From the NCBI GenBank assembly GCA_026002875.1, contig BPGE01000001.1, forward strand, positions 2,852,001 to 2,916,000: a DNA stretch of 64,000 nt. The letters run 5' to 3'. A program made the position numbers and the translations under genes. Shown here piece by piece: positions 3,966 through 27,162 of the stretch (its first letter is position 1; the number at the start of each line of letters is the position of its first letter). A model generated the notes under the pieces. That model made no database searches. It was not told where the DNA came from and worked only from the letters and a program-made list of their open reading frames with translations. The DNA is from Bryobacteraceae bacterium (GTDB lineage: Bacteria; Acidobacteriota; Terriglobia; Bryobacterales; Bryobacteraceae).

Positions 3966-4007
3966 GCTCCGCTCGCGGGCCGGCGCTGCCGGCCCGAAGC
4001 GGAGGCG
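3966..4007 (+). terminator. Hairpin terminator after the metalloprotease gene
   Basis: Just after the stop codon, GGGCCGGC (3977-3984) pairs perfectly with GCCGGCCC (3988-3995) across a 3-nt loop. The outer flanks CTCCGCT and AGCGGAGG can extend the stem. There is no U-tract, so it may act as a Rho-assisted or mRNA 3'-end hairpin. Confidence 0.5.
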
Positions 4008-4179
4008 GCCTCATTGCCCTCTTGCGGAATACCGGAGCGGATGAATTCTCTCTGCTCTGAGGGTTCCGAGCCTCGAGCGAACCGGCCTCAGGCCGCGGGA
4101 GCAGGCGGTTCCCGGCCGTGGCCTGCCGCGCCCCCCAGCAGGTTTCCCGCCGCTCTTGGGCTGAGGCTGAATCCCAACT

Positions 4180-4400
4180 GTGTCTGCCTGCGCCTGAAGA
4201 GAGGTCCCTTCGCAGCCCAGCCCTGAAGGGCGATTTCCGGGGGAGCCCATGCCCCCGGAACATCAGCAGCCGCAGAAATCGCGAAAAGGGCTGGCCGTTT
4301 GAGAGCCGCGCACGAATGCCGTCTCGCGCTTCCCGCCCGGCAGGCGATGCTCGATGCAGCCTTCGCGGGCGCTTGCCGCCCAGCCGGGCGCGCAGCCGCA
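4180..4400 (+). repeat. Solitary copy of the ~120-bp dispersed repeat (opposite orientation to the 25-27 kb array)
   Basis: The core at about 4228-4283 carries GGCGATTTCCGGGGGAGC, then ATGCCCCCGG, then CATCAGCAGCCGCAGAAATC. This is the same order of blocks found on the minus strand of the 25-27 kb array: GCGATTTCC, GGGAGC, ATG, CCGGGACATCAGCAT, AAATC. Following sequence with GCGCGGC and CGTTT blocks matches the inter-core part of the 16-kb copies more weakly. The rest of the 3960-4481 gap shows no gene. Confidence 0.5.
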
Positions 4401-16194: not shown

Positions 16195-16400
16195 CTCGTC
16201 CGCGGTGATGAGAAGCGCCCCGTGCTGCATGGAGAGCCGCGAGCAGAGCGGCCGCAGGCTGCGGGAACGGGCGATCCCATTCAGACCGCTTCGTCGTTGA
16301 CGGCTCCCTTGCAAGCGGTCCTTCAGGCTCGGGCACCGCCCGGGAACCGCTCCCTCGACAATCGCCCGCTGAGAGGAAGTGCGGGTAACTGCTCGTTTTC

Positions 16401-16416
16401 GGCGGCTGACGCCGCC
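16401..16416. repeat. Hairpin GGCGGC-TGAC-GCCGCC, copy 2
   Basis: Identical to the 16179-16194 hairpin, about 220 bp downstream within the same element. Confidence 0.7.
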
Positions 16417-16439
16417 TTCGCTCGCGGCTCTGAGGGCAC

Positions 16440-16620
16440 GGCCGTATTCATCCATGCTGATGGCCCCCAGGGGCATGGGGGTCTCCCTCTCGGGCGCTTC
16501 GCGCCTTTCGTTCACGGCGCAGCACCCGCCGCAAGATGCCGTGATTTTCTGCATGCTGATGTCGTGAAGGATCATGGGGGCTCGCTCCCGGTGGCTGGCA
16601 ACTCCTCGTTTGGCAGCACG
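16440..16620 (-). repeat. Two units of the dispersed repeat (minus-strand sense)
   Basis: Two cores lie 99 bp apart. On the minus strand they read ATG at 16575 (peptide start MILHDISMQK) and ATG at 16476 (MPLGAISMDE), each preceded by GGGAG-like bases and followed by variable sequence. The inter-core stretch with GGGCGCTTC, TTCGTTCACGGC and ACCCGCCGC matches the 25.94-26.05 kb unit closely. Confidence 0.65.
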
Positions 16621-24597: not shown

Positions 24598-25149
24598 ATG
24601 CAGTTGCCAGAGATGGGGCGAACGGTCTTGCGCGTCGCGACTGGAGCGCTGGCAGCCCTGATGGTGCCGCTGGCGGCCTCGCAGGTGGTGGAGGGGTGGA
24701 ACTGGCCTCCGGAAGCATTCCTGCGGGTGTATGTGCTGTTCTTCCTGACGGGAATGGTGTTTGCCCTGGTGTCGAGGCGGATGGGCGTCTGGCATTACAA
24801 GGCGGGCGTCGGGGTGGCGCTCGCGGCGGGGTTCGCCCTGGGATGGTCCAACATGGTGCACGTCGCCGGTACTGGAAACCTGGCGAACCTCTGGTACTAC
24901 AGCGTGCTTGCCGTGGGCGCTGGCGGGGCGTTGCTGTCGCGCCTGAAGGCTCGGGGTCTGTCCAGGACGCTGTTCGTGATGGCTGCCCTGCTGGCGCTGA
25001 TTTCCGTGCTCGTTCCTTCCGGTGCCCCGCCCGATATGGCGCGGAGGATGGCCATCGGGCATGGCGTCAATGCGGGGCTCTTCATTGCGGCAGGCTTCCT
25101 GTTCCGCCGCGCAGCATTGGCGGAGCCGAAGCAGGGCCTGAGCCGGTGA
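24598..25149 (+). CDS. Conserved membrane protein of unknown function (about five helices)
   Basis: The ATG at 24598 has GGAAGGA eight bases upstream; an in-frame ATG at 24574 is less well placed. The 183-aa product has hydrophobic helices at about residues 8-28, 38-58 (VYVLFFLTGMVFALVSRRMG), 66-84 (GVGVALAAGFALGWSNM), 97-115, 122-140 and 155-172. The pattern GMVFALVSRRMGVWHYKAGVGVALAAGF followed by NLANLWYYSVLAVGAGGAL resembles small membrane proteins seen in many soil bacteria with no known function. It stands alone between the ppdK terminator and the repeat array. Confidence 0.75.
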   Translation: MQLPEMGRTVLRVATGALAALMVPLAASQVVEGWNWPPEAFLRVYVLFFLTGMVFALVSRRMGVWHYKAGVGVALAAGFALGWSNMVHVAGTGNLANLWYYSVLAVGAGGALLSRLKARGLSRTLFVMAALLALISVLVPSGAPPDMARRMAIGHGVNAGLFIAAGFLFRRAALAEPKQGLSR

Positions 25150-25154
25150 AACGG

Positions 25155-26240
25155 CTGTCCTGCCCTGGCGGATGCCGCTTCCTCGAAAACCACCCGCTCA
25201 GCGAAGACCGGGCTGGAGACCGCTCGCTCCAGCAGCCTGTGGCCGCTTCGCAAGCGGCTCAAAACCCGCTGTAAACCCGCCGAGATCTTCATTCGTGCTG
25301 ACGTCCCGGCGGGTCATGGGAGCTTCCTCGAAAATCGCCAGCCAAAGTTGAGCCCAGGAATCAGCTTTCGCCATTTCTGCAGGAACATCGCAGACGAACA
25401 GATCGCCGAAAAACCGGTTGCACCCTGACAAGGCGCCACTCAGACATTGATGATTTGCATTCCATGCTGCGCAAACAGGCTTTCTTCACCGGGCCGCGAG
25501 GCGCCCCCCTCGGCGATTTCCATGGATTCTGATGTCTCGCGGGATCATGCAGACTGCCTTAACCATGACGGCCAACATTTTGAACAAAAGCTCTTTGTCT
25601 GTTTCAGCCACAAATCGGAATACAAGGCGCCTCTTCGCTCCTTTTCACTCTGACGTCCCGCGGGGCATCGGAGCTCTGTCGCAGATTGTCCGCCGGGCTT
25701 TGAACCCTGCACATGACCCTTCCCCCGAAAATCGCCCGCCCGAATATGGAAAACCAGCTTCACTGGCTGTTTCGGCGAAAAGCCGCAAGACGGCGCACTG
25801 CGGCCGGTGATGTTGATTGACACTGATGTCCCCCAGGGTCCTGGCGGCTCCCCCGCCGATCATCCGCCCACATTGAGAAAACAGGCCTCTTTTTCTATCG
25901 AAATCAAAAAACTTGGCACCGAGGCGATTCGACCGCAATTTCCATTGATGCTGGCGTCCCGGAGGGACATGGCGGTTCGCTTTCGGGCGCTTCAGGCACT
26001 TCATTCGCGGCACGAAACCCGCCGCCCGGTGCCGCGATTTCCATCTGTTCTGGCGTCCCGCCGGATTGTGGAAGTTCTCTCGGAAATCGCCCGTCAGGAG
26101 ATCGGAAGGACGCCCCTCTTGCCGTTTGTATGAAAAACCGAAACACCGGGCACGACCCCGGGCGTTTTTCATCGATGCTGATGTCCCGGAGAGTCATGGG
26201 CCTCCCTGCGGATGCTGCATGGATGAGGCCGTCTGTGCGG
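25155..26240 (-). repeat. Tandem array of degenerate ~100-130-bp repeat units (left block, about eight or nine units)
   Basis: Read on the minus strand each unit holds GGCGATTTYCGAGGGAGC, a CCATGACC-type start, then CGGGACATCAGCATYGATG and AAAAT, followed by 50-80 variable bases rich in CGGTTTTTC-like blocks. ATG (or equivalent) positions: 25317 (MTRRDVSTNE), 25548 (MIPRDIRIHG), 25668, 25842 (AGG instead of ATG; then TLGDISVNQ), 25970 (MSLRDASING), about 26068 (ATG lost) and 26197 (MTLRDISIDE). Partial units lie at about 25155-25200 and about 25448. Spacing is mostly 98-130 bp. The repeats are too diverged and irregular to be CRISPR. There is no other gene in this 1.2-kb stretch. Confidence 0.7.
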
Positions 26241-26242
26241 TC
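26206..26242 (+). repeat. 37-bp direct repeat, copy 1
   Basis: CTGCGGATGCTGCATGGATG and following bases recur at 26283-26319 with a single mismatch. The copies are 77 bp apart, at the junction between the repeat array and flgJ. Confidence 0.85.
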
Positions 26243-26282
26243 TGCCGGAGCGGCCGCCTGAGCCTGAACCGGCTCCGGAGAA

Positions 26283-26319
26283 CTGCGGATGCTGCATGGA
26301 TGAGGCCGTCTGCGCGGTC
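26283..26319 (+). repeat. 37-bp direct repeat, copy 2
   Basis: Second copy of the 26206-26242 sequence (36 of 37 bases identical), ending 22 bp before the flgJ stop. Confidence 0.85.
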
Positions 26320-26341
26320 CTGAGGCCGTTTCCGTCTCCGC

Positions 26342-26734
26342 TCAGCCGGACCGGCCTTGGGCCGCGGCGACGGAGTCTGGCTGGTTTTCCCCGGAGACCT
26401 TGCCCGTCCGGGAGGTTTGGTCGGCCAGCGACTGCTCGACCAGACGGGCCAGTCCGAGCCCTCCCTGGGCTGCCAGCGCCGTGGCCAGGCACTGCTCGGC
26501 CATCTCCATCAGGCTGAAGGCCGCATCCTGCTCTTCACCGCCAAGCCAGCCGCCGCCGCTGGCCTCTCGCATGGAGCGGAGCATCTGGGCGACAAGCAGG
26601 GCCTCGAATTCGACGGCCGCAGCACGGATGCCTTCAGGCGTCGATCTCCGGTCTGCGGAGAGCCCTGCCTCAGTCCATTCAAACGGCAACGTGGGCGATG
26701 CCGCGCTTATGGAGAGTGAGTTTGAGATTTCCAT
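26342..26734 (-). CDS. flgJ: FlgJ-like rod-binding protein, no muramidase domain
   Basis: The product (130 aa) contains the rod-binding (FlgJ N-terminal) core AAVEFEALLVAQMLRSMREAS, then a turn with SLMEMAEQCLATALAAQGGLGLARLVEQSL. This matches the first half of enterobacterial FlgJ, which helps assemble the flagellar rod in the periplasm. The peptidoglycan hydrolase half is missing, as in many non-enteric bacteria. The ATG at 26734, preceded by GGAAAGAC, lies in the ATGGAAATC block of a repeat unit. The gene is separated from flgI by 430 bp of repeats, an unusual gap for these neighbouring genes. Confidence 0.8.
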   Translation of the reverse strand: MEISNSLSISAASPTLPFEWTEAGLSADRRSTPEGIRAAAVEFEALLVAQMLRSMREASGGGWLGGEEQDAAFSLMEMAEQCLATALAAQGGLGLARLVEQSLADQTSRTGKVSGENQPDSVAAAQGRSG

Positions 26735-27152
26735 TCCGTCTTTCCGCTACAGCGCCGCCGGGACGGTGCTGGACACAGCTTCTACGCAAATCGCCTCCCG
26801 GGATATGAAGGAGGGCCGCTGTCCCTGTTTGTTCAAGAACCGAAAGCCCTGTATCGTCTTTGGTGATTTTCCCGGATTCTGGCATCCCCCACCATGATGG
26901 GGACTCTTTCGCAAATCGCGCGCCAATCGATGAAGAAACGCCTTTATTCTTTGGACGAAAAGCCACAACACGAGGCGCCGCCCACACCGGTCTTTCTCCC
27001 TGCGCATGTCCAGCAGGGTCATCGGAGCTCCTTCGCAGATCGCTCGCCGACGCATGGACAACAGGTCGCGCCCTCTCTGCTGGCTCGAAAAAGCGGCAAA
27101 CCAGCCGTCGTTCGCGGCCGTTGTCCCTGATGCTGATTTCCAGCGGGGTCAT
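26679..27152 (-). CDS. Open frame spanning the repeats between flgI and flgJ (possible translated linker)
   Basis: An uninterrupted 157-codon minus-strand frame starts at an ATG 8 nt after the flgI stop (MTPLEISIRD) and ends inside flgJ, 56 nt past its start. It runs through three repeat units and so contains recurring blocks such as SDLRRSS and GDLRRSC. No known domain is seen. It may be a real protein, a frame kept open so that translation continues across the gap, or chance. It has no good ribosome site beyond the repeat's own GGAG-like bases. Confidence 0.3.
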   Translation of the reverse strand: MTPLEISIRDNGRERRLVCRFFEPAERARPVVHASASDLRRSSDDPAGHAQGERPVWAAPRVVAFRPKNKGVSSSIGARFAKESPSWWGMPESGKITKDDTGLSVLEQTGTAALLHIPGGDLRRSCVQHRPGGAVAERRNGNLKLTLHKRGIAHVAV

Positions 27153-27162
27153 GGCGGCTGAC
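26735..27162 (-). repeat. Tandem repeat units between flgI and flgJ (right block, about four units)
   Basis: Minus-strand ATGs at 27152 (MTPLEISIRD), 27022 (MTLLDMRREK) and 26895 (MVGDARIREN), with a degenerate core near 26770, keep a 125-130-bp period. Blocks match the left array: GCGNATTTGCG, GGAGC, ATGACCC, CAGCAT, GAAAA. The first unit begins at the flgI stop codon and the last merges into the flgJ start. Confidence 0.7.

Follow-up and report, generated by a model that had tools for sequence, protein, structure and literature searches.

A probably mobile palindromic DNA repeat with a start-codon-like arm forms an array beside flgJ in a Bryobacteraceae genome

Elements of the IS200/IS605 type insert 3' of a short fixed foot, without duplication of the target. 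The array described here, ten related units on the minus strand running from 27156 to 25177, lies in a 64,000-nucleotide window (positions 2852001-2916000) of a Bryobacteraceae bacterium whose genome is a single contig of 4,863,736 bases, and we consider it probable that each unit is an old copy of a palindromic, non-autonomous mobile DNA repeat, of the miniature inverted-repeat transposable element (MITE) or repetitive extragenic palindromic (REP)-like kind, which inserts after (R)AGC feet and is moved in trans. Three described systems come closest. The REP structures of class-3 TnpA_Y1 enzymes number about 600 in Solibacter usitatus, and the report on them calls for further experimental analyses of the enzymes (PMC6006769). 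ERIC and the repeats RU-1 (127 bp), RU-2 and RU-3 are treated in PMC2759123, and the terminal inverted repeat (TIR)/REP double structures and TIRtrons of tyrosine transposases in PMC3733652, which places the Acidobacteria in one TIRYT group.

The units share a fixed head and tail, which we call the shell, and differ in their interiors. REP hairpins in or beside many units resemble those at HUH genes with a Y----Q motif here, as in the class-3 systems; unlike the class-3 structures reported in PMC6006769, the shell has no CnGA foot, is a sequence of its own and is found also with interiors in which no REP is recognised. In size, intergenic position, MITE-like character and fortuitous open frames the units recall ERIC and the RU repeats as set out in PMC2759123, a likeness at the level of description; shell copies differ in forming arrays and in adjoining REPs. 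In the TIR/REP double structures and TIRtrons of PMC3733652, too, units resembling REPs are linked with unrelated stem-loops and have been amplified, but no GTAG or CGTC tag was noticed in the shell and no transposase was found between shell ends. The subterminal hairpin near the left end and the proposed foot-directed insertion without target duplication would be shared with IS200/IS605, whereas the shell encodes no transposase and its cleavage is something that we infer. Among the titles listed by the literature searches none names this family (subscription papers lay mostly outside those searches); its kind is well known.

Anatomy of the unit and of the array

Hidden Markov model (HMM) searches gave 142 matches (E <= 0.01) in fetched stretches, which cover only part of the at least 129 model matches in the source genome. 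The 94 matches with at least 28 of 36 head letters form our head set; 60 of these, distinct and ungapped, entered the codon test, and 47, with a tail, the pairing test. In the 94 aligned heads and their surroundings, better-kept copies show, in order, a foot ending AGC, CCCC, the palindrome ATGaCCCtgcGGGaCAT, CAGCATGGAT, GAAAATCGC(C), an interior, and the tail GGYGATTTTCGAGGGAGC. In complete copies the head (CCCC-ATGaCCCtgcGGGaCAT-...-GAAAATCGC) and the tail, complementary to it, are fixed, and the interior between them varies. The complementary head and tail arms, GAAAATCGCC and GGCGATTTTC, are 8-10 nt long, and the outer end arms GCCCCC and GGGAGC pair with a single mismatched step, read as G.T on the minus strand (C.A on the other reading). 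The terminal repeat of the shell, as a MITE would carry it, consists of this 6-nt pair with its mismatched step plus the 8-10 nt arms, with no covariation; in being short, dispersed in many copies and mainly intergenic, the family resembles bacterial MITEs.

Interiors are unrelated between types, and the ends are the same. Type 1, in the source genome, contains the REP hairpin GCCGCGAACGAAGGCGGCGTCAGCCGCCGAAAGTGAGCGGT; type 2, also in the source genome, is found in seven window units (a, b, c, d, f, g and h) and at least four others elsewhere; type 3, from one genus mate (G004), was aligned in 9 copies. No REP was recognised inside types 2 and 3, and longer interiors are filled with other repeats. 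The fold expected of a unit has an end stem, a head hairpin and an inner stem. The type-1 consensus takes it on the minus strand only; the type-2 consensus takes it on the plus strand and forms end and inner stems on the minus strand. A further common hairpin repeat, GGGTTTCCCCTCGCGCTTGCGCGAGGGCTGCATCCCAACCGTGCC-like, lies downstream of heads at several fetched loci (for example L011, L042, L062 and L069).

The array and the copies elsewhere in the window are listed below in window positions, the head being given by its first base; coordinates prefixed G000:C1 are whole-genome positions on the contig (C1) of the source genome (G000).

27027..27156, minus strand: unit a, type-2 interior; head 27152, tail 27044-27027; starts 6 nt past the flgI stop codon
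26903..27026, minus strand: unit b, type 2; head 27022, tail 26920-26903
26778..26902, minus strand: unit c, type 2, decayed head at 26895; tail 26795-26778
26074..26201, minus strand: unit d, type 2; head 26197, reading MTLRDISIDE; tail 26091-26074
25975..26073, minus strand: unit e, REP-like interior; head 26069 without ATG; adjoins the tail of unit d
25847..25974, minus strand: unit f, type 2; head 25970; adjoins the REP 3' foot of unit e
25719..25846, minus strand: unit g, type 2; head 25842 (no ATG), tail 25736-25719
25553..25690, minus strand: unit h, type 2, one base of the head (25668) lost; weak tail-like remnant before it at 25690-25673 (6 mismatches); right end uncertain
25322..25552, minus strand: unit i, long or composite interior; head 25548, clear tail 25339-25322
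25177..25321, minus strand: unit j, type 1, REP-like interior at 25260-25218; head 25317, tail 25194-25177
16349..16579, minus strand: two tandem units upstream of an FAA-hydrolase gene; heads 16575 and 16476; the second with a REP interior and tail 16366-16349, then GGTT
4003..4286, plus strand, outer limits approximate: decayed unit with repeat-filled interior; tail 4229-4246, then a second decayed head

The array of related minus-strand units announced in the preliminary description is borne out, with similarity beyond chance in BLAST and pattern searches with reversed controls, as are the extra copies outside it, two at 16.35-16.58 kb (minus) and one near 4.2 kb (plus). Head-to-head spacings are 130, 127, 698, 128, 99, 128, 174, 120 and 231 nt, with flgJ inside the 698-nt gap. 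Units a to c lie between flgI (Pfam FlgI, E=5.7e-126) and a gene for a FlgJ-like rod-binding protein (PF10135, below cut-off at E=0.0039), and seven units follow flgJ; a predicted convergent gene ending at 25149 adjoins the far side of this seven-unit block. The distance from the flgI stop to the flgJ start is 428 nt in the source genome, where it holds units a to c, and 250, 117, 184 and 174 nt in its four genus mates (G001, G002, G003 and G004), in none of whose gaps was a unit found. In G002 one unit (L123:1185-1231, E=1.3e-5) lies behind flgJ, in about the same place as the window array, by shared ancestry or repeated insertion. Just behind flgJ, at 26206-26319 of the window and outside the array units, a 37-nt sequence is repeated 77 bp apart (97 % identical).

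The apparent start codon

What first drew attention to this locus was a conserved ATG with a peptide start behind it, said to be kept in at least ten copies. All seven quoted peptides can be read out within the array, and a homologous ATG is present in seven of the ten array units; the other three lack it. Some copies had been described as having lost the ATG, and so they have: the unit at 26069 reads ACA and that at 25842 AGG. At 26895 the homologous position in the alignment reads ATC, and the quoted ATG sits one codon downstream. The unit at 25668 has its ATG, has lost one base and meets a stop after 7 codons.

The preliminary description took the initiation segment to be conserved above the rest of the unit, and this does not hold. 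In the 60 distinct ungapped heads, the ATG columns are 87, 80 and 87 % conserved against a mean of about 81 % over 36 columns, and the far end of the unit is conserved too. The check for bias toward synonymous sites that it suggested, once run, likewise speaks against small or decayed small genes. Identity at codon positions 1, 2 and 3 of these heads is 0.81, 0.80 and 0.82, and 73 synonymous changes were observed against 70.9 +/- 7.0 when changes were dealt at random. In 11 whole type-2 units read in the ATG frame there are 115 against 117.2 +/- 8.9 expected, and the other two frames are also as expected. The open reading frames (ORFs) from eight array ATGs run for 157, 91, 20, 97, 36, 7, 20 and 39 codons, and frames break and differ among units. 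We rejected a coding-gene family as a candidate for want of synonymous excess and of a kept frame, and for the unrelated interiors of the types.

A second palindrome, ATGaCCCtgcGGGaCAT, lies in the head; one of its arms, ATG, is the apparent start codon, and the other is CAT. The ATG is kept in 36 of the 60 heads and its CAT partner in 40, and the apparent start codon is better explained as one side of a DNA hairpin than as the start of a protein or a selected initiation core. Where the T of the ATG opposite A has been lost, C is the commonest replacement (7/46 copies), leaving a G.T pair on the other strand; this change could fit a hairpin arm, but equally an ordinary transition bias. The pattern first noticed is, we think, real and non-random, and the cause given for its conserved ATG wrong.

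Distribution, junctions and candidate enzymes

The genome-wide search that had been called for found copies well beyond the window. Of the outcomes that the preliminary description named as refuting its reading, the lack of a synonymous bias is seen here and the lack of copies across the genome is not. BLAST with a 60-nt consensus typed by eye gave 24 places in the source genome and 9 and 5 in two genus mates (3 of 41 genomes searched, all of one genus), and none in the two other genus mates or in 36 further relatives. A sequence model built from 12 complete units, with up to 150 candidates per genome scored, returned, across the five genus members, at least 129, at least 60, at least 22, 1 and 1 matches; many are REP-only, and these are neither full nor pure shell counts. 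The single matches, both weak, are in the two mates negative by BLAST and pattern. The 23-nt head pattern (up to 3 mismatches, 200 family genomes scanned) occurs at 20, 11 and 2 places in the three genus members that BLAST had matched and nowhere in the other two, and its reversed control gave 0 in every genome. Two of the 195 family genomes outside the genus have a single head-pattern match each, neither with the head flank. No tail accompanies one of them, and the other is at the end of a contig, with its tail beyond view. The tail pattern (up to 2 mismatches) was found at 38 places against 0 for its reversed control. One search each of plasmid and viral collections gave no match. A single wider contig scan gave 3 matches in the uncultured Bryobacteraceae metagenome-assembled genome CAKZUE01, taken as the same genome as G004, and 1 in Geodermatophilus that is probably chance. 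As far as searched, the repeat family is confined to one Bryobacteraceae genus. The mobile unit that the preliminary description offered among its options fares well: copies are dispersed and intergenic and have variable interiors; one genus has them in three of its five members, and the other relatives searched have none.

Genes were called with a home-made codon-usage script trained on ORFs with a strong GC3-GC2 difference, which places flgI in the right frame. In the stretches tested, which were chosen around copies, none of the 94 heads falls inside a predicted gene, against a mean of 63.7 (range 51-76, 500 draws) at random places in the same stretches. An earlier version of the script, trained on shadow ORFs, had put 9 of 94 heads in genes (58 at random places) and was discarded. 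Genes flank 86 heads on both sides, in 32 convergent, 13 divergent and 41 co-directional settings.

Abutment of heads to tails or to REP 3' feet is far above chance. By a rule written after the sequences had been seen (a head adjoining a tail or a REP foot), of the 77 heads in the source genome, 16 directly adjoin another copy's tail, 9 adjoin a REP 3' foot and the remaining 52 have neither beside them; the 11 heads in G004 comprise 8 at a REP foot (GGCCGGAGCAAGC-like) and 3 that are not at one. Under the same rule, 5100 random AGC sites gave 14 at tails and 114 at REP feet. The locus L016 reads as a clean insertion: its left flank is REP-B up to CCAAGC, its right flank continues GGTTCAAAACACC, close to the usual post-REP-B GGTTCAAACACAACC, and the flanks joined would restore REP-B with its normal downstream bases, GGTTCAAA.CAC. 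Left and right feet often differ (CAAGC and GGAGC), both ending AGC, so no target duplication is evident.

The source genome encodes two related HUH proteins, 51 % identical, with the motifs THAHV and THVHV and Y----Q (YVADRQ and YVIEEQ), and an orthologue is found in G004:

G000:C1:800887-801378, minus strand: class-3-like HUH (RAYT-like) gene, its own REP variant beside it
G000:C1:2182133-2182663, plus strand: class-3-like HUH (RAYT-like) gene, its own REP variant beside it
G004:C69:164-667: class-3-like HUH gene, orthologue (76 %); REP-B copies downstream, upstream side cut by the contig end

Family models match the two source-genome proteins below cut-off throughout (NCBIfam REP_Tyr_transpos, E=4.5e-4 and 0.013; transpos_IS200, 0.16 and 2.9e-4; Pfam Y1_Tnp, 0.11 and 0.0021), and no class-3-like HUH gene was found in G001, G002 or G003. 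REP variants A and B each flank one of the source-genome genes on both sides. The class-3 association, a Y----Q HUH gene flanked by structures, is seen for REP-A and REP-B, and not for the shell. By inspection, REPs beside the HUH genes have the foot CAGA, CGGA or CCGA (some CAGT) before GCCGCG, and the REP inside type-1 units mostly CTGT. The REP part is of a known kind, because the motifs, the CnGA foot at these genes and the phylum fit class 3 as described in PMC6006769. The shell is distinct from class-3 REPs: it has an (R)AGC foot and also occurs in units where no REP is recognised.

Y1 transposase matches above the Pfam cut-off lie at two other places, G000:C1:3427295-3427624 and 2167817-2168026. 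The protein at the latter is distantly related (28-34 %) to the class-3-like proteins. A short motif scan showed no clear unit beside either, and one unit about 2 kb from 2167817-2168026. REP-A and REP-B recur with other hairpins in a tandem array of about 273-bp period (G000:C1:4666846-4668009), and alternating inverted REPs, like bacterial interspersed mosaic elements (BIME-like), form an array of 136-bp period (G000:C1:3490057-3490534); no head was recognised in either.

Origin of the array

If the array arose by insertion, as we favour, the palindromes would fold in single-stranded DNA and serve as the recognition feature of a transposase acting in trans, the best candidate being a class-3-like HUH TnpA_Y1 (RAYT-like) enzyme encoded by genes that have the same kinds of REP around them. 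Insertion would occur 3' of an (A/G)AGC foot, which REP ends provide (..GAGCGAGC^GGTC). The element's own tail (..GAGGGAGC) would recreate that foot; new copies could therefore insert behind older ones and extend an array with no need for tandem duplication, the copies then decaying as unselected DNA. The anatomy, distribution and junction statistics are observed; movement, the mobilising enzyme and the single-strand route are what we infer. In its fullest form the proposal is of a modular shell, hairpin ends with exchangeable interiors (REP included), that is moved in trans by the class-3 HUH enzyme, inserts at the REP 3' foot and behind its own target-restoring tail, and so seeds its own arrays without tandem duplication; we put this forward tentatively, as possible but doubtful when all its parts are taken together.

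Several observations weigh against this account. As many as 52 of the 77 source-genome heads, and all 6 of those in G002 (5) and G003 (1), adjoin neither tail nor REP foot. L016 is the single clean empty-site reading found, and in the joined-flank comparison HMM scores are alike for joined and filled sites, with four REP bases past the junction and the upstream flank one base short. G002 carries copies, yet the search found no such enzyme there, and the head/tail shell has its own foot, (R)AGC, in place of the CnGA foot of class-3 structures. Among 88 head-bearing matches in the fetched stretches, 40 have a tail within 300 nt, 42 have none in the stretch, and for the other 6 the closest tail lies at a distance of 478-2342 nt and no HUH-like frame intervenes, the search for a parent transposon having been limited to HUH-like frames in these stretches. 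Narrow looks around the HUH gene at 800887-801378 and in the 260 nt upstream of 12 tails, where other repeats, heads or chance matches lie, gave no autonomous copy. The folding evidence is no kinder. The 47 copies show no head-tail compensatory change, with 0.776 of paired cells against 0.778 with tails shuffled; RNAalifold on 12 units found just 2 of 23 pairs changed on both sides, and its covariation term was unfavourable (+0.35); 14 folds of 7 copies, on both strands, had z from +0.79 to -2.45, mostly no better than shuffles; and the type-3 consensus lacks the expected shape on either strand. Copies that decayed without selection once inserted would show just such a lack of covariation; together with the weak single-copy folds, this lack also means that hairpin structure is read from consensus complementarity alone.

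It is possible to read the array instead as a satellite, one insertion near flgJ multiplied by replication slippage or unequal crossing-over and then diverged. Several spacings of 99-130 bp agree with this, as does an array of near-identical 145-bp copies elsewhere in the source genome (3334727-3335165), which is plainly tandem duplication; duplication therefore happens in this genome too, a further point against our account. Within the window, however, units with a REP-like interior (e and j) share the array with type-2 units, and the mean identity of type-2 units is 53 % between window copies, 57 % between window and dispersed copies and 68 % among dispersed copies. This is the pattern that independent old descendants of a common source would leave, more than young tandem duplication, with old divergence blurring the comparison, and we regard a satellite as an unlikely origin. 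The repeat could also be a MITE derived from an ordinary DDE transposon, unrelated to HUH enzymes and bounded by short terminal inverted repeats. This would account for the GCCCCC/GGGAGC end arms and for a shell without a CnGA foot, the nearness of REPs reflecting nothing beyond shared intergenic space; the joining of 8 of 11 G004 heads at a REP foot, and feet that often differ with no target duplication evident, fit it poorly, and it has about as little in its favour as the satellite.

Selection for a host function, with mobility secondary, would make the units structured DNA or RNA such as mRNA 3'-end stabilisers, terminators or gyrase-type sites. The avoidance of predicted genes by all 94 heads and the excess of convergent (32) over divergent (13) settings are what such a role might produce, but the units lack covariation, single copies fold weakly, no Rfam covariance model matches, and the family is absent by BLAST and pattern from two genus mates (one weak model match each) and from the family sampled beyond, which makes this reading less probable still. 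A structured RNA was rejected as a candidate on the negative Rfam result, head-tail covariation not above tail shuffles and single-copy folds mostly at shuffle level. We find it barely credible that the units are small genes, intact or decayed, that share the conserved N-terminus MTLRDIS: ATG stands in 36 of 60 heads and five frames of 91-193 codons are open among the ten ATG-bearing window units, but synonymous change sits at expectation in heads and whole type-2 units, frames and downstream peptides vary from unit to unit, and interiors are unrelated between types.

Recognising a probably mobile palindromic repeat here removes the tempting false lead of a micro-gene family and shows how a conserved ribosome site, ATG and peptide can be imitated by such a repeat. 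Class-3 enzymes could, moreover, be studied here in a concrete system made up of two class-3-like HUH genes, their REP variants and a second, REP-adjoining element. If it is true that arrays grow behind a regenerated foot, this would be a simple route to satellite-looking arrays without slippage.

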